A stretch of 64,000 bases of DNA from the NCBI RefSeq assembly GCF_004359215.1, contig NC_090615.1, forward strand, positions 6,910,373-6,974,372. Direction: 5' to 3'. The notes beneath the pieces were generated by a model. That model searched no databases and was not told where the DNA came from. It was given only the letters and a program-made list of their open reading frames with translations. A program made the translations under genes and the position numbers. Origin of the DNA: Bremia lactucae. Its lineage: Eukaryota > Oomycota > Peronosporomycetes > Peronosporales > Peronosporaceae. Shown piece after piece: positions 1,545 through 56,321 of this stretch (position 1 is its first letter; the number at the start of each line of letters is the position of its first letter).

Positions 1545-1973
1545 TGTAATGGGGCACTGCCGACTTGAACTGCTTCAGTACAAGTCCACTTGCACTGCCT
1601 CAGTGCGAGTGGTGCCGCCTTACGTCACTTCACGTACACTAGTACGTGCAGAGGAAACTCTCGTTAAAACTTTTGCTTTGAAAAGGGTTAATTAAAAACA
1701 GTATTAATATAATTAAGTTCTTCTGTTCTATCTACTTAATCCTAACTTAATTATTTACTAGCACAAAACATGTAATAAAGTCTTATCTGTCTCTCTCTTT
1801 GCGCGCGTCCAGCACTGACTGGACCGCGGAGCAAGTAGATATAATGGTCTGTATCTACCAATGGATAAACTTTTCAAATATTACTATGTAAAATAATAGT
1901 ATCTACCTTTTAGATAATATTTTAATAAAAAATTATTAAGTGATAATTTCTTGTAACGATGCACCCCTATACA
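1545..1973 (-). repeat. LTR-A, 3' LTR of the left amb-Gypsy copy
   Basis: A 429 bp block with TG...CA ends (TGTAATGGGGCAC to CTATACA on the + strand). It shares its layout with LTRs at 33692-34132 and 55869-56321: an inner TCTGTCTCTCTCTTTGCGCGCG tract, TGGACCGCGGA, and a long AT-rich right third. Its right edge is followed by a reverse-complement purine tract and amb-Gypsy internal sequence, so it is the 3' LTR of an element on the minus strand. No matching target duplication is visible because the other end is lost. Confidence 0.8.
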
Positions 1974-1996
1974 TCAATCCTCCCTTAAACAACAAT
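1974..1996 (-). other. Polypurine tract of left amb-Gypsy
   Basis: On the minus strand this reads GTTGTTTAAGGGAGGATTGA directly before the LTR start. The same purine-rich junction occurs at 11011-11022 (+) and 37293-37310 (-), as expected for the plus-strand primer of an LTR element. Confidence 0.6.
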
Positions 1997-2051
1997 CACT
2001 CTGACTGTCATTGGATAGAGTGGTTACCAAAAGACCACTTAATTAAATACG

Positions 2052-3972
2052 ATGTTGATTGGTCAGAGCCATCATTTTTTTCGCATTGTTAACAAGTCCA
2101 TGCGATGTGCGAATAGTGCGGCGCCTTCGGCTGCGGTACATGCAGCTGCGGGTGACGCAGTATTGTCTTTTGCGGCAATCGTTCCGTCTGTCGTAGCATC
2201 GTCTTCTCCCGCAACTTTAAATGTTGCGTATGCACGTGGTGAGTCACCACGTGAATGCGACACCTCTTTGGAGGTCGACTATGAGTGTGATCTCGACGAA
2301 CTGGCCGACTTGGGGTGAACAGAACAGTCGCCTGACCATCGTCAGGCGGCTGACTATGAGCATTCGAATGAGGGGGCTCAATCGGATAGACGTGCTAGTT
2401 GCATTCGCTATAGCATGTTCGGTTCCGACGATGAGGATGATTCCCTATCGCTAGCACCGTCTCCCGTGCCGTCACCCGCACATGTTTATGTGCGTGGTAA
2501 TGACGATGGCGTAAGCCATCGTAATAAAAGTTCTTGTGGTACCCCTGCTTCAGTATGTACCGTTCAGGGGAGCGTAGACAATAACATGTCTCGTCTTGCC
2601 CCTGAGAAAAAGCCGTGGCCTGTGCCCCAACGGCTCGTCAATAGCTTTTCTCGAGAGAGAACTCCTCACAATAAATATCCCTTATTTATTGCGACATGGC
2701 CGTGATCCCAGCGCGAAGGACTTCGCGCTGAGGAAGATTTTTATCTGGATGCTTTTTTAAGCATCGATCGTACAGACACATCAGCGTTATTAACCCTAAG
2801 AGTGGCAACAACAAACGAGATAAAATGTCGTTGATGCAAGCCTGAAGCGCATTCATTTGCAATGTGAAAGACATTGGGCGCGAAGCCTGGTTTCAAAGAC
2901 TTAACGCGATTCGCGTTAAGTTTGAGAAACGAACTAAAACCGGTGCGAACATAGCAGCGTTATTAATCTTAAGAGTGGCAGCAACAAACGAGATAAAATC
3001 TCTTTGTTGCAAGCCTGGAGTGCGTTCATTCGCAATGTGAAAGACATTGGACGCGAAGCCTGGATTCAAAGACTTAACGCGATACGCGTAAAGTTTGAGA
3101 AACGAACCATAAAATGAGTGCAAGGTATAAATTGCATCGGTTGCCTCGTGAGGCAGAACTTCCATGCCTCACGTGGGGTGATCCTTGTTGGCAACACGAA
3201 ACGAGTGAAAGGGGATGTTTATTCCCGTTCTTCATCCTAGGGGAGAGCTCGCATCTCTATCGAGATGCGCGATGCAATTGACGTTTTGCAAATGATTTAC
3301 AGGCGCCAGGGGTGCGTGTAGCTTCTGTTTCATCGGATGGGTCTCGTCATACTGCCGGACTAGGCCCCCAACGTCAGCAACCAGCTAGGAACGAGACTCC
3401 CAGCTGTCATGTGTAGGTGGATAACCACGCCAGCGAACAAGATAACTCGTACACTGCCCCTTCATCACGGTGATTTTGAATACGTTTCACAAGGAAACGT
3501 TGACCACCGTGGGCATCCACCAATGCTTGTGGCAGAGGAGGGAAAATTAGATCCGACCCATGTGTGGGATCAAGAGTCGAAAACCGACAAACTCGATCAC
3601 TTCCTCCATGAATTGGAGGAGGGACTTGATCACTAGCGCGGCAAGCGTCGCTCGTTGTAACAGACGGTGCAGGCTCACAATATCGAACGGTTGGAAGACC
3701 GTTCGAAGAGTGCGTACTCCATGTTGGAGTACGAACGGAAATATCACGCTCTTCGTGATGAGCTGTTGTCCGCTCTTCGTGATGAGCTGTCGTCCGCTCA
3801 TCGCAGTTTCGAGGAAACTCTGAACCGACATGAGAATCTCCAGATTCAACATGAGAATCTGGTTTGTGACCACAAGAATTTTGTAGGGATTCTTGAAAAG
3901 GGTGTTCAGATCCGTCCTCGGAAGAAACCGCGTACTGATGGTACGGGCGGTGCCTACCAACGTAAGACTTAG
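2052..3972 (+). pseudogene. amb-Gypsy antisense ORF, left copy (degraded)
   Basis: Protein-like frame on the strand opposite to the Gypsy pol that follows. From the LTR inward it holds an Ala-rich segment (about 2120-2220), an acidic part with FLSIDRTDTS (about 2755), KRDKISLLQAWSAFIRNV (about 2970-3030), then REAWIQRLN and KFEKRT. A Cys-rich part (LPCLTWGDPC, about 3160) follows, then MRDAIDV (3267). Next come QGNVDHRGHPP and a charged, likely coiled-coil stretch (3667-3900), and a basic tail RPRKKPRTD near 3920 that looks like a nuclear localisation signal. It has several stops, frameshifts and a 173 bp duplication. Matching frames occur at 37380-38953, 46601-47555 and, inverted, at 9264-10905. 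Function is unknown; the comparison across copies, not a known domain, is the evidence. Confidence 0.65.
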
Positions 3973-6449
3973 GATGCGTTCGCATCCTACGTGGCAAATT
4001 TATTGTATACGCATTACCTCTGCGATGCAGTACACGAAAGGCCCAATGAACTTGGGCAGTAGTTTACTACTACCCACATTAGTGACTACATGCTTAGGTA
4101 AGTTTACCGTAGACAGTAGTACTAGATCACTAATTCTAAATGAAAGAACATTTGCTCTTCCATGTTTGTCTGCGTTCCGTTTCTGACGATCCACTGAATT
4201 AGCAATGGAATCCTGTACGAAACGGACTACTGATTCTCGAGCCAGTAGAAATTCTTCTGCTGACTCTTTATTTTAAGTGCGCTTTGTGCGCACTGCCATG
4301 TGATATTTCTCATCTTTGATGTCGATTGCTTCGACATCGACATTATTCGCGTCGTTGGTAACTTCGACGCGTGATGAGCATGAGCCAGAAACAGTTTTGC
4401 TCGTGCGAGTCCACCCCACCCCCTTAAACTAGAGGATTCCTCTAATCGGGTGGGTATGCGTGGATGGCGTAAGCCATTCACGAAGAACGGTGTATGCGTT
4501 GTAGACGCATGCACCGAATTATTGATGGCGAATTCGACCATCGGTAAGAACTTGCTCCAATTCGGATACGATTGGACGTAACCTCGAAGTATCTTTTCGA
4601 GGACGCGGTTTACGCGTTCTGTTTGACCATCCGTTTCTGGGTGATCAGAAGTTGACATAGTCAGCCGTGTTCCGATCTCTCGGAACACGGATTGCTAAAA
4701 CTCCACTGTCGGTCGTGGATCTCTATTCGAGACCAATTCACGGGGTGGACCGTGGAATTTGAATACCCTGTCGATAAAGACACGCGCACAGCCCGGAGCT
4801 GTGAACGACTCTGGTACTGCAACAAGATGTCCCATCTTGCTGAATCTGTCTACAAAAACAAGGATTATATTATTTTTGTGATCGTCTTTGGGAAATCCGA
4901 AGACGAAGTCCATAGATACGGACTGCCAACATTCTGTCGGAACAGGCAGAGGTTTTAACGGAGTACAGAATCAAGCACTGGGCTTCAACCTTTGACAAAC
5001 TTCGCAAGCACGTAAGAGCTTGCGAATGGATATAAACTGGGGTGGTCAGTAGAAATTTTGGTTATCGTGAGATAAATTTCTCATGTCCACGATAGCCACA
5101 TATTGGTACTGATACAAGATGTGTAAACGCAGAATATTATGGGTGGGAATGCGAAATGAAATGTGTCGCCTGCAATACCTGTGTAATACAGTAATCATTG
5201 CGTGTTTTGTATTGATCTGTTTAGAATCGATACGATTATGACCATCCTTTTAAGAATTGTTGTGATGGATTTCTAAGGAAATTCATCAAAGCTTTTAGAG
5301 TCTTGCCTTCTTGATAGGCTCTTCTATCGTCAAGTAATGTTCATGTCAAAACACATATTGCTGCAGCGTTAGGCTCATGCTCACTTTTAATTTTTTCCAC
5401 CACCGGCTCAAAAAAAACGTGCCGACACAAATAAGGGATCAGCGACGACGTTTAGTCGTCCTGGTTTTAATTCCACGGAGAATTTATGCTTCAAGAAAGG
5501 AAGGTAACTATCTCGCCATTTTTTTGCGATGAGTGAACTTTTTACGGCCGCATGGCTCGTATAAACACTGATCGGTCAATCTTTCAAGAGATTGACCTTA
5601 AATTTATCCAGTGTATATTTCATGGCAATGCGCTCCTCGTCATACACTGGGCAATTGCATTCAGCTGGTTATAGATGACGCGATTGATAGGAGACGACGC
5701 GCTTTGCACCGTCTGTGTCATATTACATTAACGCACAGCCGATTGCAAAATAGCTTGCGTCACAGACCGCATGAAATCATCTGCCTTGGTCCGCAATCGC
5801 CAAGATAGGCAATTGCATCAACCTTTGCTTGACACCCTCATAGTAATGCTGACAATCATCGCTCTATGACAACTTTACATTTCTTTAACGAAGAAGAAAG
5901 ATGTACTGTCATTTCGGCACAACTTCGGGAGTGCTTATGTAAGTACGGGCCGCCAAGCCGAGAAACCTTCGAGGCTTCTTTAAATCGACTGGCACAGGTT
6001 ACTCGGTGATCGCCTTGATCGCTTACGGATCAGGGCGTGCACCGTATTTACCGACATGCACTCAATAAGTGGTGTTTCGCTTGCAGCGAGTATACACTTC
6101 GTGAAGTTGGCATGCAACTTATGCTCACGCGTAAATGCACGAACCTTTCGGACGTGGGAACGATGCACTTCAACGTCCGACTTTTGACTCGTGGCTTTTA
6201 TGAACGAAGGCGTCATCAAAATATCTCGGTTCGAAATCCCACACTATTGTTGACAGATTGGTTACACATCTTCGATGTTGCAGGGGCATTGAATATCCTC
6301 TTCACGCATAAGGATGATAGAATCCATCCATCAGATATATTGACAAGAAGATGGTACTCTTTGACATACCATGTCTTTTCCTGCTATCGGCGTTTGAGCT
6401 AATATTGGTGCAGCGTTCAATTTATTGAGCGCGTGCACAATCCGCTACC
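3407..6449 (-). pseudogene. amb-Gypsy pol, left inverted arm (RT to chromodomain)
   Basis: Ty3/Gypsy polyprotein remnant read leftwards. Reverse transcriptase: RIVHALNKLN near 6440, GFYH and YFDDAFVH near 6220-6250, and the thumb-side HKLHANFTKCILAASE at about 6100. A weak RNase H region lies at 5600-5900. Integrase: VFVDRFSKMGHL (about 4840) and HPETDGQTERVNRV with EFAINNSVHASTT (4400-4650). C-terminal part: SSKLLPKFIGPF (about 4050), the chromodomain lead-in YVGRHRPYHQY (about 3960) and FPPLPQALVDAHGGQRFLV (about 3500). Stops and frameshifts are frequent, so it is inactive. Its inner end meets a second copy head to head at 6450-6473. Confidence 0.85.
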
Positions 6450-6545
6450 TTCCTAGTGCTTCACGCGTATATGGGTGACAGATTGTGCACGCGCTCAACA
6501 TATCGAACGCTGCAACGGTACCGGCTCAACCGAGAAAATACGTAA
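6390..6545. repeat. Inner ends of head-to-head inverted Gypsy arms
   Basis: Left inner end 6409-6449 and right inner end 6474-6520 are imperfect reverse complements. Both read GG(T)...GATTGTGCACGCGCTCAA toward pol and are separated by 24 bp. Both begin at the same codon neighbourhood of reverse transcriptase (RIVHALN). Confidence 0.75.
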
Positions 6546-9500
6546 TTATTGAGGGAATGTCAAAAAGTATCTTCTTTTCGTCCATGGATCTGATGGGTGG
6601 ATTTTATCAGATACCCATGCGTGAACAAAGTAGCAGTAAGTATACCAAGCGGAGTGCTTTGGAAGTAACGAGTTGTGCCACAGGGGCTTGGTAATGTCCC
6701 TGCAACATTCAACAGATGTGTAACCGATCTGTTGAGATCGGTGCGGGTATTTGCACCAATTTTTTTTTATATTGTTCAGAGCCATGAGTGGATATTTGGA
6801 AGCTAAGCTCATCGAGCTCACGTCCGAACCGTTCTTATGCTCACGCATAGGTTGCATGCAAATCTCCAGAAGTGCATATTTGCTGCAAACGATATATCAC
6901 TTCTTGGTGCATCGTGGGTAAACATGGTGTTCGCCCTGATCCGGAAAAGATCATGACCATCACTGACTGGACTGTGCCAGTCGATGGAAAAGGGACTTCG
7001 AAAGCTTTTTGGCTTAGCTGCGTATTTGCCCATGTACTCACGCAATGACGCTGAAATGACAGTACATCTTTCTTCTTTGTTGAAAAAATGTAAAGCGGTC
7101 ATCAAACGCTGATTGTCAGCGTTCATTTAAGGTATCAAGCAAAGCTTGATGCAATCGCCAATCCTAGCGATTGCTGACCATAACACACGCCAGCGCTCTT
7201 TCAACGGCTGTGCGCTGATGCAATATGACACAGACGGCGCAGAGCGCATCGTCTATTAAAAATCGCGTCAGCTTCAACCAGCTGAAAGCAATTATCGAGT
7301 GCATGATAAGAAACTTTGTGCCATGAAAAATGCACAGGCCAACTTTAGGGTTTATGTCTTGGGAGACAGACCATTCATTGTATATGAGGAACATGCGTCT
7401 TTGCGTACGGCCGTAAACAGCCCACACCTTATAAAAAGAATGGCGAGATGGTTGTCTTTCTTCGCGGAGTATAACTTCTCCGTGGAGTCTAATCAGGACG
7501 ACTTAGCGTCGTCGCTGATGCGCTTTCGCGCCTGATCAATTTTGAGCCGGCTGTGGAAATCAATACTGAGCATAAGGCCACTGCTGCAACAATCAACAGT
7601 GAGCATAAAGCCACTGTTGCAACAATAAGTGTTCCGTCGTCAGCATTACTTGACGACGTTAGAAGAGCATATCAAGAAGATAAGGCTCTTAAAGGGTTGA
7701 TGGACAACTTTTGAAATCCACCCCAACAATCGTTTACGGGATTGTCGATATTGTATCGATCCTCAACAGATCGATACACAACACGCGGGTTACTGTACTA
7801 TACAGCCATTGCTGCCGACAATCCACGTGTCGTCTTCCTTATTCATAATGTTTTGCGTTTACGCATTATGTAGGAGTGCCACGATGCACTAATAAGTGGG
7901 CATCGTGGACGTGAGAAGACTTATCTCACGATGAGTCGCGACTTTTACTGACCACGCCAGTATGAGTTCGTCCGCAAATACGTACTTGCTTACGTGTTTT
8001 TCAACGAGTGAAGTTCAGTGCTTCATCGCGTGCTCCGTTACAACATCTGCCTGTTTCTGCAGAGTGTTGGCAGTCCGAATCTATAGACTCCATCTTCGGA
8101 TTTTCCGAAGGCGATACAAGAATAATTGCATTCTTGTGTTTGTTGATCATTTCAGCAAGATGTAGCATCTTGCTGCTGTCCCGGAGCCAAAAGATGTGCT
8201 CGTTATTTTATTGATACGATATTTCGACTCTATAGCTTATCGCGTGAACTGGTCTCAGATCAAGACCCTATATTCACGGCGGAATTTTGGCATCTCTGTG
8301 TTTGAATCACTTGAAACATAGCAAAAATGTCATTTTCTGTCATTTACAAGCAGATGGTCAGACAGAACGTGCAAATCATATCCTCGAACAGATAGCTTGC
8401 GGATACGTCCACTCTTTACGACTTGTAGCGTGGTTTTGCCGATGGTAGAACTTGCCATCTGCATGCTTCTTCATACATGACTTTTTCGTGAACGACTTAC
8501 GCCATCCACGTATACCCGCCTTGTTTATAAGTGACTCTTATTCAAGAGGGGAGAGACCCGCTCAAGCAAATAACTTTCTAGCTCTTGATCATCACGGATT
8601 GACCCCACTGTCAATGCGAAGGATACCAATGTTGATTTAATCAAAATTGAAGTGGACAATTCAGTAATTTCAATAATGCCATTAGTGACAATAGTATCGA
8701 TGCTTTAAAAGACTCAGCCTTGAAAAAATGATATTAGGGAGACTCTTGCCGAAGAGGAGATTGAAATCTTCCCAGTGCGAACCGGTCGCACTGAAAACAA
8801 AATAAAACCAAGTCAGGTGGTGACTTTCTGTTGGCTAAAAGCTGTGGTCCGTTTCGTACAGGATTTCATCGCTGATGCGGTGGACCGTCAGAAACAGAAC
8901 TCTGACAAAAAAGGGATCCTTCATTTCATGTAAACGATCTAGTCCAACTGCCTACGGTAATCTACCAAAACATGTAGAGACGAATTTGGGCATTTATAAA
9001 GTACCGTTAACTATATCATCGGTATCCATGTAATGCACCGCCAATACAATGCGTACACGATCGAGTTTTCTCTTGGATGCATACGCATCCTACAATTTAT
9101 GTTGGGCGTCTCCGCCGTTACCATCAGTACGAGGCTTCTTCCGATTCCGAATCACACCGGAAGGGTCTAAGGTTTCTGCCAAAGCCTGATAGTCCCGAGC
9201 TTAAGAATGACAGTCTTGGGACAGAGTCTTGTTCTCAGGAAACAGACGATCCACGTTTTTCTCTCAGGAAGAGATCATTTGACGAGCTTTCACAAGCTCG
9301 TTTCGAACGGACTGATGTGTCCTTTCGTTCGCAAGATCACTCACAACTTGAACACAGTTTTCAGCTGGTCGCAAGAAACATTATCGACCGTCACCGCTAA
9401 CTCGCAGCGACGGGATCGCTCGTGATCAATGTCCTCCCTCAAAAAGTGAAGGGTCGCGATCCAAATCACGATGTTAATTCGGGCTCGTCGAACGAGGCGG

Positions 9501-9790
9501 ACCCGATTTTTCCTCCCCCTTCAATCCATTGACGGATTCTGTTCGAGTGGTGAGAAGCGATTACTTGTTGAATGCTTCTCGAGCCACCGTGATGAAAAGG
9601 AGGTTCAAACGAGGTATCTCGTTCGTTGGCGATGGTATCCATCCTCTCATAATAGTTAACAACCTCGTTCCCAACTAATGATGGACGTTCCGGGTCTCGT
9701 GCGATAGTACGACGAGACCCATCCTATTCCACAAAGGGTCCATCAGAGAACGAGCGCTTTTCGCGCTCGTAAAAGAGCTGGACATTCTCA
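6474..9790 (+). pseudogene. amb-Gypsy pol, right inverted arm (RT to chromodomain)
   Basis: Second Ty3/Gypsy pol remnant, read rightwards. RT palm: IVHALNISNAATVPAQ then SIFFSSMDLMGGFYQIPMRE (6485-6650). RNase H: DRPFIVYEEHASLRTAVNSP and RMARWLSFFAEYNFSVE (7350-7490). Zinc-finger and integrase pieces lie at 7620-8400 (VFVDHFSKM near 8150, DGQTERAN near 8350), with FFVNDLRHPRIP at 8480. C-terminal part: YVGRLRRYHQYEASS (about 9100), then chromodomain RYLVRWRWYPSSHNS (9620-9659) and YDETHPIPQ (about 9715). There are many stops. It is more diverged from the left arm than expected for a recent fold-back. Confidence 0.85.
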
Positions 9791-10905
9791 ATCCTTTCGC
9801 GCATGTCACAAGAAATGAGCATCCTCCAACGAGGATCTTTAAGGGAGTATGCTTCCTTAGGGGCATGACCTGCACCCTTATAACAGCATGGACATGAGAT
9901 CCCCTACGAGAAACAAGTTATTCCTGCCTCTCTAGCAAACAGTGCAGCTTGTAGCGTGCACCAATTACGGTCCGGTTTTTCGATCCGTTCACTAAAAGCA
10001 TCCAGTATGTCAAGCCAGACCTCACGGCATATGCATTACACATTCTGTACAATTGCTGTCCAAGCTTGAAACAAACGTTTGACATGTTTTACCCGCTTAC
10101 AAGTGTACCACCGATGCCGGAAAAGGGCATCGATGAAGAATTTCGTTTCACCCTCACCAGGCTTGTGAAGCCTGGATGATTCGAACAACGGAATATCGAT
10201 CTCTGGTCATACCAGACCAACGAGTTAGGCTACTTTTAGAGGGCAACCAAGGCTTGTTTTCGGGAGTGAACTGCAACGTATCACGGTACCTCTCCTGTTA
10301 ACTCATGTAAATGTTTACGGTACCATGGCTCTCGGAGCGATCCTTAGAATCACTCCTTTCCTGGCGAGCAAACTAGCACCACCACCAGCATTCTTCCCTT
10401 CACGATCACTTCGCTCCTGGTGACGCATATTCTAACGTCGCCAGAGTGATCGTCCTCTATGGAGTCATAATCAGATGACTTTCCACCAAAAAGAGGTTCA
10501 ACGAGTTGAACAACCTCGTCACCATCTATTTGGAGTTGTCACAGTAAAAGACAAATGTTTAATGGACTCAGCCCCGGGTGATCCGGTAGCCTTCACAGTA
10601 GCCACTTAGTCGAGCGATGACGGTTACCTAGACCAGTCATCTACAATTGGTGTAGCAGATAACTTGTTAGGTGACGGTGACTAGTCACCGTCACCTGCAA
10701 TGGCATTAACATATGACATATTCCAGACATATCCAATGGGAGTAGGAGGTCATTTATTACCCACATTAGACGCATTAGCGTCCTCTAAAATATATGCATT
10801 AGCAACAACTGCACTGTTCCGTGCAGCTGCCAGCTATGCGACCTCACGGGCTACGCGCACAGACTTGTTGAAAGCTATGCGCAAACGAAATGATTGCTGA
10901 ACAAA
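9264..10905 (-). pseudogene. amb-Gypsy antisense ORF, right copy (degraded)
   Basis: Read on the minus strand from 10905 leftwards, this matches the antisense frames at 2052 and 37380. It has KSVRVAREVA with an Ala-rich run and DANASNVGNK (10770-10880), FFIDAL (about 10130) and KRVKHVKRLFQAWTAIVQNV (about 10060-10110). Next come ISCPCCYKGAGHA (Cys-rich, about 9880), SLKDPRWRM, then MRERIENVQLFYEREKRSF from 9804 and FHHGGSRSIQQ (about 9590). It ends with NELVKARQMISS and a stop at 9264-9266. About 600 bp of it overlaps the chromodomain region of pol on the other strand. Several stops make it nonfunctional. No known family is recognised. Confidence 0.6.
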
Positions 10906-11010
10906 AAAGAACAATGCGACAAAATCACTTTTTTATTAAAAACCAATAACAGGGAAGACATACCAATATTTCTTTGTCACTCCACATCACTCACTATTTT
11001 AACTGTTGGT

Positions 11011-11022
11011 TAAGGGAAGTGA
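11011..11022 (+). other. Polypurine tract of right amb-Gypsy
   Basis: TAAGGGAAGTGA lies immediately before the TG of the LTR. It is the mirror image of the tract at 1974-1996. Confidence 0.6.
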
Positions 11023-11477
11023 TGTAACGGTGCGTCCCGTTACATAAATATTATTACGTATAAGAGATAAAATAAAAAGTATTTCTATGAGAGAAAAAAA
11101 CAAAGAAGTATTTTTGACTTAAAAGTTCCAATATTACCAAATTTGGTAATTTTGACGAAAAAAGACTTTAGTTTTATTGATAGGTTGGTTACAGTTTCAA
11201 TCAACACCGCAAATCGTTAGATAACACGATTGTGCGGTGAGAAGTAGGCGCCATACATAGTTTGGTAATTAATATTGTAAAGTCAATCGTAGATATAAGG
11301 TCTTTACGCAGGACCTTAATATATTAATACAGTTTCTATTGTTAAGCCTATTAACTAATCTTTGGTAGCTACGACTACTTAGCTACCTGTAATCTTCCTC
11401 TGCACGTCGTGTACGTGGAGTGACCGAGCCACGCCACCTTCACTGTAATCAGTGTAGGTTGTCTAATACTGTTAACA
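11023..11477 (+). repeat. LTR-B, 3' LTR of the right amb-Gypsy copy
   Basis: A 455 bp block from TGTAACGGTGCGTCCCGTTACA to CTGTTAACA. It contains the GGTTGGTTACAGTTT...ACCGCAAATCGTTAGATAAC region and CTTCCTCTGCACGTCGTGTACG near its right end. Related copies lie at 18569-18972 (+), 23040-23375 (-) and 37064-37292 (-). It shares only short blocks with LTR-A, such as TCCTCTGCACGT, so the two inverted arms carry different LTR subfamilies. Confidence 0.8.
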
Positions 11478-11510
11478 GTTTTCGCAAAAAAGGATGCCCT
11501 GTTACACATT

Positions 11511-33608: not shown

Positions 33609-34163
33609 TGTTGACGATGGAAACATAGTGGACGCTAAAATATCGTTGCTTTGTTTTATTATCATCGCTGTCCAAGAAACTACAGATTGTGTGTAATGGG
33701 GCACTGCTGACTTGTACTGCTTCAGTACAAGTCCACTCCACACTGCCTCAGTGCAAGTGGTGCCTCACGCCAATTCACGTACACTAGTATGTGCAGAGGA
33801 AGACTCTCTTAAAAAAACTCTTGCTGTAAAGAGGGTAACAAATAATTGTATTTTATATAATTTTATTCTTCTATTTCTATCTCTTTAATACTAACTTTAT
33901 TATAAACTATTACAAAACATGTATTAAGTCTTGTCTGTCTCTCTCTTTGCGCGCGTCCAGCGCTGACTGGACCGCGGAGAAAGTAGATATAATGGCCTAT
34001 ACCTATTAATGGATAAGCTTTCCGAATATTACTATGGGAAGTAATATTTTCTAAATAATCTCTACCTTTTAGATAACATATTAATAAATAACCTTTAAGT
34101 GTTAATTTCATGTAACGATACAACCCGTTACATTGTGGGTTTCAAGCAGTAGCTGAGGTACTT
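33609..34163 (+). repeat. Copia-5 3' LTR, interrupted by a solo LTR-A
   Basis: Left piece 33609-33691 and right piece 34138-34163 together match the first half of the 5' LTR. The end is truncated or diverged. The preceding GAGGAGTAG is the purine tract. Confidence 0.65.
33692..34132 (-). repeat. Solo LTR-A with TTGTG target duplication
   Basis: 441 bp, TGTAATGGGG to CCGTTACA, same family as 1545-1973. It is flanked by TTGTG at 33687-33691 and TTGTG at 34133-34137. No internal element sequence adjoins, so it is the product of LTR-LTR recombination after insertion into the Copia-5 LTR. Confidence 0.9.
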
Positions 34164-36963: not shown

Positions 36964-37063
36964 NNNNNNNNNNNNNNNNNNNNNNNNNNNNNNNNNNNNN
37001 NNNNNNNNNNNNNNNNNNNNNNNNNNNNNNNNNNNNNNNNNNNNNNNNNNNNNNNNNNNNNNN
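36964..37063. other. Assembly gap (100 N)
   Basis: Falls inside Copia-1 and ends in an LTR-B. At least the 5' third of Copia-1 and its 5' LTR are missing, so the true size is certainly larger than shown if Copia-1 is full length. Confidence 0.95.
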
Positions 37064-37379: not shown

Positions 37380-38953
37380 GTTGGTTTCATTTCAACCCCA
37401 ACTTTTGATTGCGCATGTTTTTTTTTCAAAATCCGTGCGTGTAGTCTGTGAAGCCGCAAAGGTAGTAGCTGCACAACTCAGTGCAGCTGCTAGTGATGCC
37501 AACGTTCCAGTAGACACTAATGCGTCTAAAAAAGGTAATGCGTCGCCTCCACTCCCATTATACGTGACTGGGCCGAGTCGACGTCGTCGCCTGACTCGGC
37601 CGGAACTGGTAAGGCCTCCAGATCAGCCGAGGCCACGTCCATTAAGCCTACGGGTTCTAACGTGACAACCAAAGAGGTGATTACAAAGTTGTTTGACACC
37701 CGCTTTTAGTGCGGAGTTATCTTCTGATGACTTCGTGGGCGATATTGAATCTGGTGATGTCAGTATGTATCAATAGGAGAGAAGTGGTCGTTAAGATCGC
37801 TTTGGTAAGCTAACAACTGGTGTTGCTTGCATGCATCACCAGGGACATAGTGATTTTACGAATCACTCCGAGAATAATGTTAGCGCTAACGTTAACATCA
37901 GCCAAAGGGGGAGGGACCGCAATGTTATGCAGTTTGCTCCCGAAAGAAGCCTTGTTTGCCCTCTAAGAGCAACTTCACTCGTTGGTCAGGTGTACCCAAC
38001 AATCGATATTAATTCCATTATGCGACTCATCCAGGCTTCACAAGCCTGGTGAGGATGAAACGGAATTCTTCATCGATGCTTTTTCCGGTATCGATGGTAC
38101 TCATGTAAGCGGGCAAAGGTCGTCACTCCTTTGTTCCAAGCTTAAGAAGCAATTTTACAGAATGTGGACAGCATAAGCCGCGAGGCCTGTCTTGACAAAC
38201 TGAATTCTTTCCGTGACCGGTTCGAAAAACGGACCGTAGTCGGTGCACGCTACCAGTTTGTCTAGAGAGACAGGGTGGTTCATGCTCGTTTTAATCAAGG
38301 GTGCAAGTCATGCCATTTGGAGACATACTCCCTTAAAGACCGTCGTTGGAGGAAGCTCTCTTGTACCACCGGGGAAGCTGTCTACATATTGTATCTTGTT
38401 ATTTGTATGCTAAATTGCTTTAAGAACTTTGTTCTTAATATTTGTCTCTTGTAAGATGCGCGAAAAGATTGAGAACCTACAATCCATTTACCAGCGCGGC
38501 AAGCGCTCGTTCTCTGATGGGCCCTCTGTCGAGGAGAATGGGTCTCGTCGTACTGTCGTACGAAACCCACAATGTCCATCATCAGTCGCGAGAGTGAATA
38601 ATCGCCTTAACAAACAAGATAACTCGTTCTAACCCCTTTCACCTCATGGTGGTTTCAGAAGCGTTCAACAAGGAAACGCATTTCACCACTTGAATCCGTG
38701 AATGGATGTGGAGGAAATGAGAAAAGTAGCTCCGACTCGTTCTCCGAAACCGAGTCAACACCGTGACTTGAATCACTTCCTCCGTTTTTTACGGGAGGAC
38801 GTTGATGACGAACGATCCCGTCGTCGAGAGTTAGCGATTACGGTCGATGAGTTTTCGCGTGACCAGTTTAAAAATGTGCGCAAGTTGTGTTTGATCCTGG
38901 CGAGCAAATGGACGCTTCAGACCCTTCAAAACGAGCTGAAGACAGCTCGTTAA
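37380..38953 (+). pseudogene. amb-Gypsy antisense ORF, central copy
   Basis: The best readable copy of the frame opposite to pol. KSVRVVCEAAKVVAAQ and an Ala-rich run with ASKKGN (37430-37540); FFIDAFSGIDGTHVSG (38065-38110); KRAKVVTPLFQA and REACLDKLNSFRDRFEKRT (38112-38235). Then GARYQFV, a Cys pair NQGCKSCHLETYSLKDRRW (38300-38355), and MREKIENLQSIYQRGKRSF from 38456. It continues with PHGGFRSVQQGNAFHH (38640), HRDLNHFLRFLREDVDDERS (38760-38820), and ends NELKTAR at 38953. Stops remain, for example at 38279 and 38632. It starts about 90 bp from the LTR, reads away from it, and its last 550 bp lie opposite the chromodomain region. Function unknown. Confidence 0.65.
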
Positions 38954-40480
38954 AAGATTTATCCTTGAGGATGAATGGAATGTATAATTAGACTTTGTTT
39001 CAAGACTATCATACTTAGTCTCGAAATCATGAGGCTTTGGCTCGTAGCCATCTGGCTTTGGCGGATGCCTTAGACCGTGCCGGTTTAATTCGAAAATGGA
39101 ACACACATCGTACGGGCGAAGACACCCGACACAAAACGTAGGATGCGTTTGAATCTTTCGAGGTAGCGCGATCGTGTACGCCTTGCACGACACGAAGCGT
39201 GTTGCCAGAAACGCTTGTGTAATAAAGTAAACGGTCGCGTTTTGTGTATCGATCTGTTAAGGATCGATACGGTTTCGATAATCATTTTAAGAATTGTTGT
39301 GATGGATTTATAAGATCATTTATCAGCCTTTTTATGAGCCGTATCTTCTTGGTAGGCTCTTCTAACGTCGACAGTCAACGTTGTTTACGGAAATCTAGTC
39401 GTTGCAACAGTAAGCTTATCCATCACTGTTATCTTGCGCCAGCCGGCTCAAAATCAAGCCGGCGTGGAAAGACATCCGATACGACTTTAGGTCTTCCCAG
39501 CTAATATCCCATCGAAAAGGTATACTCTCCGCCAAGGCAGTCAGAAATCTTGCCCGTTCTATGCGTGAAGTAAAGACTGGTTAAGGCCAGACGCATGGTC
39601 CTTTACGATTAAAGGTCTATCTCGTGTGAGATAGACCCTAAACTTAGCCATTAATATTCCATGGCAAGGATTTATTTGTCATGAACTGGATAATTGTGGT
39701 CAGCTGGTTAAAGCTGACGCGATTGATAGCAGACGACGCGCTCTGCGCCGTCTGTGAAACCGCTGGCGTCACAGACCACATCAATTGGTCTGTCTTGGTC
39801 CGCATTGGTTATCACATCAAGCTTTGCTTGATAACCTCAAAAGAACGCATACAATCGCGTTTCATGATCACTTTACATTTTTCTTCAACAAAAAAGAAAG
39901 ATGTACTGTCATTTCGGCATACTTGCGGGAGTGCTAATGTAAGTAGGCCACTATACCGAGGAATTTCGAAGTCCCTCTAAATCGACTGGCACAGGTCAGT
40001 CTGTGAACGCCAGGATCTCTTCCGGATCAGGGCGTACACCAATGTAACTTACGATGTAACCAAGAACTGCTTTTTGCTTGCAGCGAATATATATTTCTTT
40101 AGATCTGCATGCAACTTATGCTTACGCATAAGTGTAAAAACCTTTTGGACGTCGGTACGATGTTAGCCGACGTCTAATTTTCCGTTTATTGCTATGCTAT
40201 CAACGAAGACGTCAACTAAAATAACTCGGTGCGAAACCCGCACCAATTTCAACAGATTGATCACATATATTTAAATGTCGCAAGGGTATTACTAAGCCGT
40301 GTGTTATAAATAGCCGTTCCGCTTGGGGTACCCTTATGCTGTGAAATGCAGATATACATATCCTTTCCTTTATGTGCAAATATGTATTTTCATAGTTACG
40401 ACATCTCCTTCGACAATCTCCCTTTATGTATTTCCACGCGAAAACCCTACCATATGAAGAAGACGTATCCAATTATCGAG
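38390..40480 (-). pseudogene. amb-Gypsy pol, central copy (RT, RNase H, chromodomain; integrase deleted)
   Basis: Read leftwards: RT pieces with FAPSYFS (about 40215) and thumb-side sequence (40050-40150). RNase H region at 39500-39900 is antisense to the lysine-rich region near 39890. Then IALPRKIQTHPTFCVGCLRPY (39193-39110) and, after a highly degraded segment, chromodomain-end residues FVRQYDETHS, RQRAHQRTSAC (38565-38480). The integrase core that should lie between RNase H and the C-terminus is absent: the sequence passes from RNase H-adjacent bases (39240) to C-terminal bases (39190). An internal deletion, many stops. Confidence 0.75.
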
Positions 40481-42024: not shown

Positions 42025-45000
42025 CCGGTAGCGTTTCGTAGTCCGTTCAACGGCCCATGCACGTTCCCACGAATTTACTTGCGCACGAACTGATACTGGC
42101 GGGGCACCAGGTCTGACTTATTCGTTGGACCTGCCTGTTTGTCGACATGATCGCGTCACTTCGTGGGCGCATTCAGATCAAGGGTATCAGCGCCTACTCT
42201 GTAGGAAACGATGCAATCTTGGCAATGCTGTCCAATTTGGACAGGGACGCCCGTCATTCAGCCATCGCCCAAGTTGCTCATGCCAAAATTCACTTTCGTC
42301 GCATCGTCATTGATGCGGCGAGTTTCTATGGAATCATCTTGTTCGACGAACCATCTTAAAATAGAGTCGCTTTTGACTGCCTTAAACTTAGAGATTTCGA
42401 TCATTTAACTATCGGGTCGACGCGAATGCGTCGGTCAGCTAGCAGCATACAAATGCTGCTGTCGCAACAGCTCTAACTGTTGAAAGCCTTGCTGGTGAAG
42501 CAAAACTACCTTTTGTTGGGGTCCGTCGAGTCCATGTTGTTTAAACTTGGCTATAGCCGAATATTGTTCAGCTGTGTTGAAGTTGAATAGCATCGCTCCA
42601 ACGGTTGGTCCGCCTACGTCCAAACTTATGCGTTCTACCACACTCCTTATAAGGTCTCTCAAATGAGGAACCTTTCAGGCGTTGCGGGGTAGCCTTCTCA
42701 AGGAGGCGCTTATACACTTGGTCTGGTAGCGTTTCCGAAGTTAACTTCGGATACAACAGAATTGCCAACGCTAGAACTCGGTTCTTGCGTGATCTGCGTA
42801 ATGACAATGTCAAGCAGATCTGCGTAATTGTAGCAGATGACAAGTACATAGCAGATATTCGGTCGGCAATAGTATTTCCTGAGAGCGAACGGATTCTCAG
42901 CAGCTCATCGATGGACGAAAGTATCCTAGATCAGAAGACTCGGATGGAACGTTTTGTATTCCAATCCTAAGGATCTTTGAAGACAAACTTTCATATAAGT
43001 ATTTGATCGAACTCAAGGATGTATTCGCTGAATCCGTACCGTGCGAGTTGCCCAAGGATTAGGGCACTCAACACAAAATCGACCAGATATCAGGTTAAAA
43101 TTACTGTGTCATTAAGCAGTGGCCATTGCCTCGTGAATAAGTATTATCAATTGTCAAATTCTTTGCCGATCACTTAGCAGCGGGCCATGAGAGGGAATCA
43201 ACCTCCCCACATTACTCTTCGACCTTCTGTGCGCGTTAAACAACAGGGGGGCGGATTGTGCAGGCGTTCAATATAGTGAACGCTTTAACGGTATTGGCTC
43301 AAACAGCGATATCACGAAAGAATATAACCACTGATGGTATGTCAAAGAATACTATCTTTTCGTCAGTGGATCTGATGGATGATTCTGTCAAACCCTTATG
43401 TGAGAGCATGACTTCCCGTTCACAGCAGTAAGCACCACAAGCATAATGCTATTAGCGAAGCCATTTATGCCTCAGAAACTTAGTAATACCCCGGAGACAT
43501 TTAACAAATGTGTTACCAATCTGTTGAGATCGGTGCGGGATTTCTTACCGAGTTATTTTGACGACGTCCTCGGTCATAGCAGATCCATGAACGGAACGTT
43601 GGACGTTGAAGTACATCGTACTTACGTCTCAAAGGTTCTTACCCTTATGCGTAAGCATAAGTTGTACGCAAATCTAAAGAAGTGTATATTCGCTGCAAGC
43701 AAAATAATGTTTTTGGGTGCATCGTGGGTAAACGCGATATACGCCTTAATCCCGCGATCAAGCGATCACCGACTAGCCTGTTTCACTCGATGCGAAGAGA
43801 CTGCGAAAGTTTCTCGGCTCAGGCGTATACTCCCGCGATTTTTCTGAAATGACAGTATATCATTCTTCTTTGTTGAAGAGAAATGTAAATTGGTCATGGA
43901 ACGCTGATTTTCAGCGTTACTTTATAAATATCAAGCAAAGCTTGATGCAATCGCTAATCTTGGTGTTTGCGGACGAAGGTAAGTGGTCTGTGATGCCAGC
44001 GATTTTGCAATCGGCTATGGGGTAATGCAATATGACACAGACGGCACCGAGCGCGTCGTCTGCAATCAATCGCATCAGCATCAACAAGCTGATCAATTAC
44101 CCAGTGCATGATCAGTAAATTCTTGCCATTAAATATGTTGTAGCAAAGCTTTGGGTCTATCTTGGAGGATAGACCGTTCATTGTTTTTACGGACCATCCG
44201 TCTTTACGCACGGCCGTAAACAGTCCATATCCTTTGAAAAAAGCATGGCGAGATGGCTGTCTTTCTTCGCCGTGGAATACAAACCAGGGACGGCTTAATG
44301 TCGTCGCTGATGCCCTTTCGCGCCGGTCCGATATTAAGCGGCTGCGCAAACCAACAGTGAGGATAAGCCCATTGTTGCAACAATCAACAGTGAGCATGGG
44401 ACTAGTGTTGCAACATTGAGGGTTCCGTCGTCAACATTACATGACGATGTTCGAAGCGCCTACCACCAACATAAGACTCTTCAAGGGTTGATGCGTTATC
44501 TTTTGCATCCATCACAAAAATCCTTAAAATGATTGTCTTAATTTTGTATCGATCCTGAACTAGTTGATACACAACACAAAACGGTTTTACTGTACTACAC
44601 ACACGTTTGCTGGCAACACACCTCGGGTCGTCATCCCCACCATAGTGATTTGTGTACGCATCATGTATGAGCGTCACGATGCACCAATAAGTTGGCATCG
44701 TAGACGCGAGAAAACTTATTTTATAACAAGCCGCAATTTCTACTGGCCTAACTCGCCCGCAAGTGCATACGTGCTTGCAAAGTTTATCATCAAATGAAGC
44801 CCGAGGTTCATCCCGTGCTCCATGACAATCTCAGACTGTTCCGGCAGAGTGTTGTCAGTCTGTATCTATGAACTTCGTCTTCGGATTTTCTCAAGATGGT
44901 CACAGCCAACCGCTGTTCTCGTATCTTTGTTGACACGATATTCAGGGTTTCCACGTGAATTGGTTTCAGACCAAGATTCCGGGTTCGCGGCGGAGTTTTA

Positions 45001-45947
45001 GAAATCTGTGCTCAAAACACTTGCAACACAGTTGAAGGTATCCAAAAATGGATGGTCAGACGAAAATCGTATCCTCGAAGAAATACTTTGCGGATACGTT
45101 CACTCGTTTACGAGCTGGGGCGAGTTCTTGCCGATGTTAGAATTTGTCATCAACAATTTAGTGCATGCTTCTAAAACGCATTAACCGTTTTTCGTAAGTG
45201 GCTTACGTTATCTACGTATGCCCACCTTGCTCAAAAGTGACTGTTATTCAAGGGAGGGAGGGACTTGCTCGATCAATAAACAATCTAGCTTTTGCTTATC
45301 ATGCATTGACTCAACGGGTCAACGTGAATGATACCAATGTTGACACAATCAGCATTGAAAAGGACAAACTCAGTAAAAGCGATTAGGATATTGCTGCTTG
45401 GTTACAACAATGCTGAAATACTCAGCATCAAAAACAATAATACAAGGGAGACTTTAACGCTCTCTCTAATGAGGAGAATGACATCTTCGCACTGCGCACC
45501 GAGCGCACTGAAGACAAAGTAAAACCGAGTCAGCAGGAGAATTCCTCCTGGTAAGAGAAGAAGTGGTCCGTATCGTACAGAATTCCATCGCAGATGCTGT
45601 AGACCGACAGAAACGAAACTCTGACAAAAATGGAAGAGCAAACGTTCTTTCATTTGAAGTTAATGATCTAGTTGTACTGTCTACGGTAAACCTTCCTTAA
45701 CATATAGTGACTAATGTAGGCAGTAATAAATTTCTGCCCAGGTATGTCGGCTCGTTCGTGTATTGCACAGCCAAGGCAATGCCTATACGATCGAGCTGCC
45801 TCGAAGGATGCGACGCATTTTAAGTTTTACGTTGGACGTTTCCACCCGTACCACCGTACGGGGCTTCGTCGGTTCCAAATCAAACCGGCACGGACTATGG
45901 CATCCAAGAAAGACTGATGGCCCCGAATCAAACCCCCTGATAATCTC
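42025..45947 (+). pseudogene. Gypsy relic (amb-Gypsy-like pol) on the plus strand
   Basis: Begins with a primer-like CCGGTAGCGTTTCGTAGTCC (compare 20593). The gag/protease part (42050-42770) is unreadable. Pol linker: RFLRDLRNDNVKQICVIVAD (42782) and SSSSMDESILDQKTR (42895-42940). RT: PKDxGTQHKID (43050), KQWPLPRE, then ETFNKCVTNLLRSVRDFLPS and YFDDVLGHS (43490-43590), HKLYANLKKCIFAASK (43650). RNase H: DRPFIVFTDHPSLRTAVNSP (44170) and RLNVVADALSRR (44295). Integrase pieces at 44650-45160 (EFVINN near 45145). The C-terminal FLPRYVGSFVYCTAKAMPIR-like segment continues to 45945, where LTR-C interrupts before the chromodomain. Many stops. Confidence 0.8.
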
Positions 45948-46429
45948 TGTAGCGGAGCTACCTCGCTCCTAAAGTTAGATGAAGACTTCAGACTCAGATA
46001 GTCTCCTAGTTCTATAGAATTAATAAATTCAACAACTCAAGGATTCGTTCAAGCTATAAAAGCTTAGTGAATCCTTGTTCAAGAAATTCGGGCTTCGTAG
46101 AACCAAGTAACAACTATTGGCCAAGAGGATACATCTTAGAAAAGCTTCTATCTCTTATAGATCAATGCGCAAGCCTTAGGAAGGCATTTACCGCTATAAG
46201 GACAAAAGATGAAGTGCACTTTATCATAATATTTAATTTAAAACCTTAACCTAGCTGATTTAAAAATAGATTTCGACCGCCAGATTTATATCTAGCGTCG
46301 ACCACGTTTGTTACCTATTATTAACGGAATTTATGTATTTACTATTTAAGAATTGGATAGAATAGTATTTTAGCCATAAGGTATATGTACCACAACAACG
46401 GTTCTCCAACCGATGTGTGCGCCATTACA
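45948..46429 (-). repeat. LTR-C, 3' LTR of another minus-strand amb-Gypsy
   Basis: 482 bp with TG...CA ends (TGTAGCGGAGCTACC to GCGCCATTACA). Its right edge is followed by CCCTCCCCCATC, a reverse-complement polypurine tract, and then the antisense ORF frame. A fragment recurs at 1405-1544. It truncates the plus-strand Gypsy on its left. Confidence 0.7.
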
Positions 46430-46600
46430 CCCTCCCCCATCAGGCTGTTGACATCGAGTGTCAACATTCGCTTCATTTCATCGTTTAGGTCGGAAACCTA
46501 AACAGCTAACTGTTTGGTTGTGTTTTGCTTTTGTTTGTCCCATGACAATTAAGCGTGAGCCACAGACGGCTGAGCACCTTCCTCGACGATTAAGCAATCG

Positions 46601-47555
46601 GTGGACTTTGAAAATCACACTCCATCAGACGAAGAGGAACAAGAGCGTCGCTCTTACACGCCTTCTTCTCCGAATGAACGTCGGCGGGCCCCGAATCCTT
46701 TCCCAGAACATGGTGCCGCTGATGTCTTAACTGCATTGAGGAAACAGGATCCTGAGTCCACCATCATTACGAATCCGCTCGATGAAGGGCAAGATCGGGC
46801 AATCCTCATAGAGGAACAAGCTCGTCGTCAATCTGCCGAGATAGCGAAAGCTAAAGCTCATAGTGAATATAGATTCACTCCGCTTAGCGCGGATGAGTGT
46901 CTCAAAAAGATCCCGGGTCACAGCTTGGCCATCTGGACCTCCAGTGACACGGCGAGAACGCCGGAGGAGATCGCTGCTCGCGACGTTCTTTATGAGCGAT
47001 ACCTTACGTCAAAGGTAATGACGCGAAGTCTGTATCTGACTCGTTTACATGATCAAGCCCCTGGGGTTCGGTGACCTCAATGAGGGAAATTCCGATCGTT
47101 GAGAAAAAAACTCCAACCGGTGCAAAGTATAAATTGCATCGGTTGTTCCGATCGTTGAGAAAAGAACTCCAACCGGTGCAAAGTATAAATTGCATCGGTT
47201 GTCACGTGAGGCTGGACTTCCATGCCTCACGTGGGGTGATCCCTGTCCGTGTTGTGTAGACAACTCGAAGAGGGTAAAAGGGGATGTCTATTCCCTTTCT
47301 TCGCCCTGGGGAAGGGCTCGCATCTCTATTGAGATGCGTGACGCGATTGACGTTTTGCAATCGATTTACATGCGCCAAGGGCGCGTGTTTTCCGATGGGC
47401 CTTCTGAACCATCGGGTGGGTCTCGTCATACTGACGGACGAGGCCCTCAACGTCAACAATCAGCTGGGAACGAGGCTCCCAGCTGTCATGCGAAGGTGGA
47501 TAACCTCGCCAGCGAACAAGATAACTCGTTCGCTGCCCCTTCACATCACGGTGGC
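46601..47555 (+). pseudogene. amb-Gypsy antisense ORF, LTR-C copy
   Basis: The most intact N-terminal part: MDFENHTPSDEEEQERR opens a 157-codon frame rich in acidic and Pro/Ser residues. It continues FTPLSADECLKKIPGHS and RDVLYERYLTSK to a stop at 47072. After a 56 bp tandem duplication the frame resumes with KLHRLSREAGLPCLTWGDPC and PCCVDN (47190-47265). It then reads MRDAIDVLQSIYMRQGRVF (47334-47390), FSDGPSEPSGGSRHT and EQDNSFAAPSHHGG up to the gap. Middle and C-terminal parts match the copies at 2052 and 37380. The N-terminal 150 residues do not obviously match them, so this subfamily may have a different head. Confidence 0.65.
47326..47544 (-). pseudogene. amb-Gypsy chromodomain end, LTR-C copy
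   Basis: Minus-strand frame reading YLVRWRGYPPSHDSWEPR, then DVEGLVRQYDETHPMVQKAHR and a basic tail. This is the best preserved chromodomain of the family: aromatic/Trp positions and the WEP turn are present. It overlaps the antisense frame completely. The rest of pol lies in or beyond the gap at 47556. Chromodomains at the integrase C-terminus are typical of the chromovirus branch of Gypsy elements. Confidence 0.8.
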
Positions 47556-55868: not shown

Positions 55869-56321
55869 TGTAACGGGGCACTACGACTTCTACTGCTTCA
55901 GTACAACCACTTCGCACTACTTAAGTTGTGAGTGGTGCCTTACGTTATTTCACGTTCACTAATTCGTGCAAAGGAAGACTTCTCTTTAAGACAACTAGCT
56001 TAAAGAGGGTTAAATGAAAACTGTATTAATATAAATAAGTTTCTCTTCTTTCCATCTGTTAATGCTAACTTAATTACAAAACTTATACTAAACATGCAAT
56101 TGAAATCTTATCTTATATAATCTGTCTCTCTCTTTTGTTTACGTCTACAGCTGATTAGTCTGCGGGATAAATAGATATAATGACCTATACCTATTTATGG
56201 ATAAGAATTCTGAATTTTTACTATATAAAGTAATATCCCTTAAATATTATCTATCTCTTAGATAATATATTAATTAACAACCTTTAAGTGTTGATTTCAT
56301 GTAACGATACACCCCGTTACA
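55869..56321 (-). repeat. Solo LTR-A
   Basis: 453 bp, TGTAACGGGGCACTACG to CACCCCGTTACA, collinear with 33692-34132 (TCTGTCTCTCTCTTT, CTGCGGGATAAATAGATATAATG, CCTTTAAGTGTTGATTTCATGTAACGATAC). Flanks CTTGT and GCTGT are similar but not a perfect duplication. No internal sequence adjoins. Confidence 0.8.

Follow-up and report, generated by a model that had tools for sequence, protein, structure and literature searches.

The window analysed here is a stretch of 64,000 nucleotides of the Bremia lactucae genome (C6:6910373-6974372), in which an earlier, sequence-only reading had described Gypsy copies with a protein frame on the strand opposite to pol. The copies are designated c1 to c4, and the features identified are as follows.

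1545..1973, - strand: 3' LTR of c1, outer end TGTAATGGGG..., inner end ...TATACA (+ strand reading)
1974..1990, - strand: polypurine-like tract of c1, complement TCAATCCTCCCTTAAAC, adjoining the 3' LTR; the L032 equivalent in place and type is AAGGGAGGGGTGA
2052..3972, + strand: antisense ORF of c1, broken, from the Met of MLIGQ to the stop after QRKT; relatives have an open frame
2776..3112, + strand: tandem duplication within the c1 antisense ORF (2776-2939 / 2949-3112, 89%)
3316..3465, - strand: pol chromodomain of c1, opposite the antisense ORF, from alignments on the pol strand; Pfam Chromo 3.1e-14 in the relative L034
3930..6449, - strand: pol of c1, broken, from the integrase C-terminus back towards RT; right end as in the earlier reading
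6474..9815, + strand: pol of c2, broken, with chromodomain 9609-9743; left end as in the earlier reading
9090..10932, - strand: antisense ORF of c2, broken, ending KKPRTDGNGGDAQHKL at 9140-9093; N-terminal limit approximate
11023..11506, + strand: 3' LTR of c2, TGTAACGG...CCCTGTTACA
33692..34133, strand not given: LTR copy of the c1 family, from similarity to the c1 LTR
37432..39141, + strand: antisense ORF of c3 (N-terminal limit approximate), broken, with the assembly gap 36964-37063 upstream
38444..40299, - strand: pol of c3, broken pieces
43229..45857, + strand: pol of c4, to the integrase C-terminus; opposite it, an antisense ORF is represented by roughly its last 45 codons only (within 45952-45701)
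47157..47544, - strand: separate c1-type chromodomain fragment, joined to c4 in the earlier reading; ends just before an assembly gap
55869..56321, strand not given: LTR copy of the c1 family, from similarity to the c1 LTR

The antisense frame of c1 begins with a Met codon (MLIGQ) at 2052, near the 3' LTR, and its final 16 residues, KKPRTDGTGGAYQRKT, are read from 3922 and followed directly by a stop that ends at 3972, opposite the integrase C-terminus. The coordinates originally proposed for a frame running from near the 3' LTR to opposite the integrase, 2052-3972, are therefore those of the ORF itself. This ORF is disrupted by stops, frameshifts and the 164-nt tandem duplication, and the window copies in general are pseudogenes with stops and frameshifts. 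The c1 3' LTR, delimited by the LTR ends that L032 defines for this family, is 82% identical to 33692-34133, 73% to 55869-56321, and 74% and 83% to the two LTRs of L041. For the copies described as 1545-6449 and 6474-11477, a 3' LTR is present in each (1545-1973 and 11023-11506), whereas a 5' LTR and gag were not found with them.

The frame had been said to occur in every copy with a readable 3' end. This holds for three of the four copies listed (c1, c2 and c3) and fails for 45948-47544, which lacks the conserved core and is not a single copy at all: it is a composite of an integrase end on the + strand and the chromodomain fragment 47157-47544 on the - strand, a direct repeat of 3322-3464. 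A common order of motifs outside the pol overlap was confirmed in the three divergent copies, beginning with DFYLDAF at 2736 in c1, EFFIDAF at 38063 in c3 and KFFIDAL at 10143 in c2, followed by LLQAW (c1), LFQAW (c2) or LFQA-stop (c3), then REA or REV, and then FEKRT (c1, c3) or IEKPD (c2). The last motif proposed, SLKDxRW, is found in c2 (9846-9820) and c3 (38329-38355) only; c1 and its relatives read otherwise at that place.

Two features of the window's organization were also observed. The pol pieces of c1 and c2 lie head to head at about 6449-6474 with almost nothing between them and with inverted similarity flanking about 6460, an arrangement that seems unusual for independently inserted LTR elements. 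In addition, c2 (window 9565-10206) has a twin 22 kb upstream (C6:6897857), identical over the antisense query and 99.5% identical across 750 bases of the 3' end, which represents either a segmental duplication or an assembly duplicate.

LTR-bounded copies outside the window show the anatomy of the element. In L032, the LTRs lie at 2291-2775 and 5974-6425 and have the ends TGTAACGGGG and CCCCGTTACA; TGGTAGCACTTTGTAGTCC lies just inside the first LTR and AAGGGAGGGGTGA immediately before the second, and these sequences, resembling a tRNA primer site and a polypurine tract, place the RNA sense on the gag-pol strand. Between these LTRs, gag and the chromodomain are on the + strand and the antisense frame is on the - strand, the remaining pol falling within an N gap. 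L041 (LTRs 1209-1656 and 8853-9290) carries gag, RT and chromodomain on the strand opposite the antisense frame, and L043 (LTRs 1249-1652 and 8550-9023) likewise carries gag, RNase H, integrase and chromodomain; both contain N gaps. In all three, the antisense frame sits between the chromodomain and the 3' LTR, within a region from pol to the 3' LTR of about 1.1 kb (L032, L041), and it overlaps pol by about 700 nt. It is whole in none of the three, being cut by a gap in L032, interrupted by stops in L041 and frameshifted in L043. The same order of pol, chromodomain and antisense frame was found in L036-L040, and the antisense core directly adjoins pol in seven of eight copies that were picked by pol score and examined on the pol side. 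The flanks of L032 agree at four of the five target-site bases (GGAGG/GGAAG), and those of L041 and L043 show no match; a target site duplication is doubtful.

RT, RNase H, integrase and chromodomain occur in the Ty3/Gypsy order between LTRs, an order assembled from several copies since N gaps hide part of pol in L032, L041 and L043. The Pfam matches are RVT_1 at 3e-19 (L041), RT_RNaseH_2 at 3.7e-33 and Integrase_H2C2 at 6.3e-17 (L043), and the L034 Chromo match already listed. Judged from its coding sequence, the element is ambisense. In L041 the MKNQ codon lies 118 nt from the LTR edge, with about 560 codons from there to the stop, so that an antisense promoter would be expected either within this 118-nt interval or within the LTR. 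Another family of chromodomain Gypsy elements was seen beside, or nested with, the antisense-bearing one at L031:5889-7271, L033:482-2182 and L036:1375-4231.

The genome search covered 115,934,607 bases on 220 contigs; in size and content it fits the published assembly of 115 Mb, of which 24 Mb are gaps and in which Gypsy elements account for 53.3 Mb (PMC6570648). A 214-residue query from c2 matched at least 151 places (150 of 6009 candidates scored), and the 397-residue L034 frame matched at least 108 stretches (104 of 8732 candidates scored), 17 of these 108 being free of stops by hand count. Copies with a long open frame do exist, although the earlier reading had allowed that no intact copy might be present genome-wide: the frame is open over about 390-397 codons in L034, L042 and L044, whose stop-to-stop frames of 427, 426 and 400 codons, respectively, span nearly all of the L034 query. 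The N-terminal part is shifted in L042 and rearranged in L044. The opposite strand of L034 holds an equally open 238-residue pol end, from MRTHPTFYVGR to RHASQ, with the chromodomain; an LTR was not found at L034. A 608-codon frame without stops is present at C1:4826295-4827467 (L083), but one stretch of it reads in a shifted frame. Relatives were sought in prokaryote genomes and viral contigs, and none were found there.

Several groups of copies are identical or equal in score. Among 40 candidates scored, 28 places (including L038, C1:4309299, C2:1700250 and C3:2916829) share 100% identity over a 501-base segment of the antisense ORF, and among 40 scored for a segment about 4.5 kb away, 24 places are 100% identical, the next independent copies standing at about 85%. 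Equal-score groups comprise 10 places like L039 and 35 places with a pol end carrying one TAG. Such groups suggest either a single repeat contig placed repeatedly in scaffolding or a very recent burst; groups of identical copies, which may be assembly artefacts, contain broken frames, a point against the proposed gene. A separate case is L035, in which an antisense frame (L035:4018-5601) with 526 sense codons and just one internal stop lies about 1.7 kb from an ORF that resembles a protein kinase by eye. The chromodomain frame there is closed by three stops, and neither an upstream pol match nor a flanking direct repeat was found when looked for. L035 could possibly be a domesticated host gene, and because of its one stop it is left here as a relic or a candidate.

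Purifying selection acts on the antisense frame at the codon level, both outside and inside its overlap with pol, as demonstrated by comparing shared changes (present in at least three copies and mostly inherited from active elements) with private ones (present in a single copy and mostly due to decay), a design adopted because old copies decay. In the 34-family outside pol (29 sequences, 979 nt; c1 left out), shared changes are distributed 27/24/51 over codon positions 1/2/3 and private changes 170/166/156 (2x3 p = 0.0019). The corresponding synonymous/nonsynonymous/stop counts are 49/52/0 and 128/338/24; changes involving stops thus make up 0 of 101 shared and 24 of 490 private changes. The resulting N/S ratio is 0.38 of neutral (95% bootstrap 0.24-0.58, p = 1.5e-5), with 0.28 (0.14-0.50) for the core part alone and 0.47 (0.24-0.89) for the 422-nt N-terminal part. 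The first 300 nt show no position bias (shared 15/10/13), and the N-terminal part of the antisense protein is weakly constrained.

The c2-family gave a closely similar result from 34 sequences over 480 nt, with L001 and L002 left out, the exact duplicate L011 dropped, and the equal-scoring L006 and L007 both kept. Its shared changes fall 61/58/88 over the codon positions, the synonymous/nonsynonymous/stop counts are 78/118/10 for shared and 75/300/16 for private changes, and N/S is 0.39 of neutral (0.26-0.59, p = 1.1e-6). Ten of the 206 shared changes involve stops, and some shared changes therefore represent decay. Raising the threshold for sharing lowers the ratio: at two, four or five copies it is 0.58, 0.21 and 0.15 in the 34-family and 0.47, 0.28 and 0.24 in the c2-family. 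A ratio near neutral outside the overlap, which the sequence-only reading had named as grounds for abandoning the idea of a gene, was thus found in neither subfamily.

The copies were selected for resemblance to the antisense protein, a choice that biases towards open frames, although the comparison of shared with private changes within copies is less affected. Outside the overlap, the opposite-strand frame that shares wobble positions also has a low ratio (42:55, p = 0.00075), and stops and open frames are therefore also needed to choose the strand. The integrase region (30 sequences), taken for calibration, has a ratio of 0.54 (0.34-0.85) when read in pol, itself an imperfect reference, and of 0.39 (0.24-0.64) in the wobble-sharing opposite frame, so the ratio alone cannot tell the strand. 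The stop counts speak to this point. In the region outside pol, 30 stops were counted in 8484 antisense codons (12 of 29 copies have none), as against 201-909 in the other frames; expressed per 100 codons for the 29 genomic relatives of c1, this is 0.35 versus 2.4-10.8 in the other five frames. Together with the avoidance of amino-acid changes among shared changes, this exceeds what chance would give.

Within the overlap (28 sequences, 702 nt), the ratio is 0.46 (0.26-0.81) for the antisense frame and 0.85 (0.45-1.89) for pol. The linker between integrase and chromodomain gives 0.42 (0.21-0.86) for the antisense frame and 1.43 (0.63-4.70) for pol, and the chromodomain part gives 0.54 (0.18-1.55) and 0.40 (0.14-1.42), respectively. 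Coordinates derived from L034 place third positions of one frame opposite second positions of the other, and a shared change at an antisense third position, as in 22 of the 39 in the linker, is therefore a change at a second position of pol. Stops in the overlap number 19 in 6178 antisense codons versus 45 in 6156 pol codons (p = 0.001; copies chosen by the antisense protein). In eight copies chosen instead by pol score, the antisense frame has 4 stops in 1870 codons and pol 13 in 1861 (p = 0.03); outside the overlap, these eight contain 10 antisense stops in 1281 codons, and L085, where the core is lost, accounts for four of the ten.

The protein itself, as aligned in A2 (35 members), has a poorly conserved N-terminal part followed by a conserved block, REAWL.KL....R..FEKR...GA..KLHRLSREAGLPCL.WGDPCPCC. 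Over this core block, L034 and L035 are identical at 36 of 49 residues (hand count), compared with 41% overall. Beyond this block, A2 shows a variable middle, then a likely coiled coil, and finally RPRKKPR at the C-terminal end; weak matches to coiled-coil proteins (best E 0.015 and 0.021) fall for the most part in positions 265-377. The NLS-like RPRKKPR was read directly from the sequence and lies opposite the integrase motif FYVGRLRPYHQ, and pol may therefore help to conserve it. No family for the core was found in Pfam, NCBIfam, PHROGs or PDB sequences, and the Pfam searches returned no domain of a known regulator. PF04195 (Transposase_28) did not appear at E up to 1 in L034, L035 or the 35 A2 members, nor at E up to 0.01 in L053 and L063. 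A weak MADF/Myb-like match (E = 0.92, in one of three composites) was dropped, as it is not among the 14 families listed for the 35 members.

The antisense frame holds a constant place in LTR-bounded elements and is open in several copies, and we consider it very probable that it is a real gene. Opposite-strand frames over conserved pol motifs appear conserved, and the last antisense codons do lie over the integrase C-terminal motif, so it had to be weighed whether the frame merely mirrors pol or is open by chance and yields no product. This is highly improbable: the shadow reading is rejected by selection outside pol, where 979 nt and 480 nt retain the low ratios of 0.38 and 0.39, and in the linker it is the antisense frame that is constrained (0.42), with pol indistinguishable from neutral (1.43, wide limits). 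Nested and head-to-head insertions also occur in this genome (c1/c2 at about 6460; L036 with two Gypsy types), and the sequence-only reading had itself raised the prospect that the frame is a normal gag of tail-to-tail insertions. The likelihood of such an origin, be it from gag or from some other gene of a neighbouring element, is negligible, and it is rejected because gag and the readable pol share the strand opposite the antisense frame inside a single LTR pair in L032, L041 and L043; the same order recurs in L036-L040, and Pfam detects no gag domain in the antisense frame. Antisense RNA across pol would pair with genomic RNA, and the region might accordingly be kept as RNA, through such pairing or RNA interference, the open frame being incidental. 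Codon-level selection in two subfamilies and the absence of stops among 101 shared changes point instead to translation, and we assign this explanation only a very small chance.

With a real gene accepted, where its product acts becomes the main point of divergence. Most probably, by analogy with known antisense proteins, it is an accessory gene of a chromodomain Ty3/Gypsy element that encodes a nuclear protein made from antisense RNA of the 3' LTR region; the nuclear-regulator role rests on this analogy, the likely coiled coil and the basic end. In this model, a promoter in or beside the 3' LTR would drive an antisense mRNA, and the product of about 560 residues would enter the nucleus via its C-terminal RPRKKPR, self-associate through the coiled coil and act, through the conserved Cys-rich core, on the transcription, chromatin or integration of the element, much as may be the case for plant Retand and HTLV antisense proteins. 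The gene product could instead work elsewhere than in the nucleus, or on the host, for example in RNA packaging, in counteracting silencing or as a particle protein, its NLS-like end being a by-product of the pol overlap. That end does lie opposite the integrase motif, and Cys-rich cores occur also in RNA-binding proteins. The combination of coiled coil and basic end fits a nuclear regulator, and the antisense protein of maize Grande is reported to be nuclear (PMC11963269, citing another paper), which leaves a non-nuclear role rather unlikely. Returning to the nuclear accessory gene, its occurrence in subfamilies that have diverged suggests that it was already part of the element when they split. 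A more far-reaching combination, in which about 700 nt are double-coded with the antisense frame better kept and dictating the integrase-chromodomain linker, and in which the product is an independently evolved nuclear regulator with a new fold, is put forward tentatively. If true, a nuclear antisense regulator would have evolved independently of plants and retroviruses in an ambisense chromodomain Gypsy lineage.

Among known systems, antisense genes in LTR retroelements are described for a plant lineage (PMC11963269) and for some retroviruses. Retand elements of plants carry antisense ORFs between pol and the 3' LTR, with TRP28 in 97% of clusters, and a regulatory, DNA-binding protein has been proposed as their product; these elements are non-chromoviruses of flowering plants (PMC11963269). 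The element described here resembles the Retand/Tat group (TRP28; Grande, RIRE2, Retand) in being Ty3/Gypsy with an extra antisense frame between pol and the 3' LTR (PMC11963269). It differs in its chromodomain, in overlapping pol by about 700 nt, in the length of the pol-3' LTR region (2.9-6.6 kb in Retand/Tat, PMC11963269; about 1.1 kb here) and in having no PF04195 match. The word "overlap" does not occur in the text of PMC11963269. Membership in the TRP28 family was rejected, as PF04195 was not detected in the frames searched by Pfam, and the antisense frame is most likely analogous but unrelated to the plant Retand antisense ORFs.

Chronos, an oomycete Ty3/Gypsy element, also ends pol with a chromodomain and has a dual RNase H (PMC5348765). 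In contrast to that dual arrangement, the native RNase H of L043 is separated from the integrase zinc finger by a stretch in which Pfam recognizes no RNase H; no second, archaeal-type RNase H was detected by Pfam (E up to 1) in five open pieces of this one broken copy, and on that copy Chronos membership was rejected. The text of PMC5348765 contains none of the terms "antisense", "additional ORF", "extra ORF" and "opposite". A search confined to the open-access literature showed no antisense gene described for any oomycete Gypsy element.

Retroviral antisense genes, such as HTLV-1 HBZ and HIV-1 ASP, are expressed from the 3' LTR side. The likeness to them lies in the plan of a minus-strand gene overlapping sense genes, and HBZ is nuclear (PMC11963269, PMC8781085, PMC10846101); the proteins, hosts and overlapped genes differ, and no homology is claimed. 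The long pol overlap of the Bremia element offers a natural case of double coding that is measurable at more than 100 matching places, and the finding suggests that an overlooked gene can lie within what is annotated as repeat in genomes of this kind. Alongside the plant and retroviral systems, this element provides a further case, with its own, unrelated-looking protein, for comparing why retroelements acquire antisense genes.
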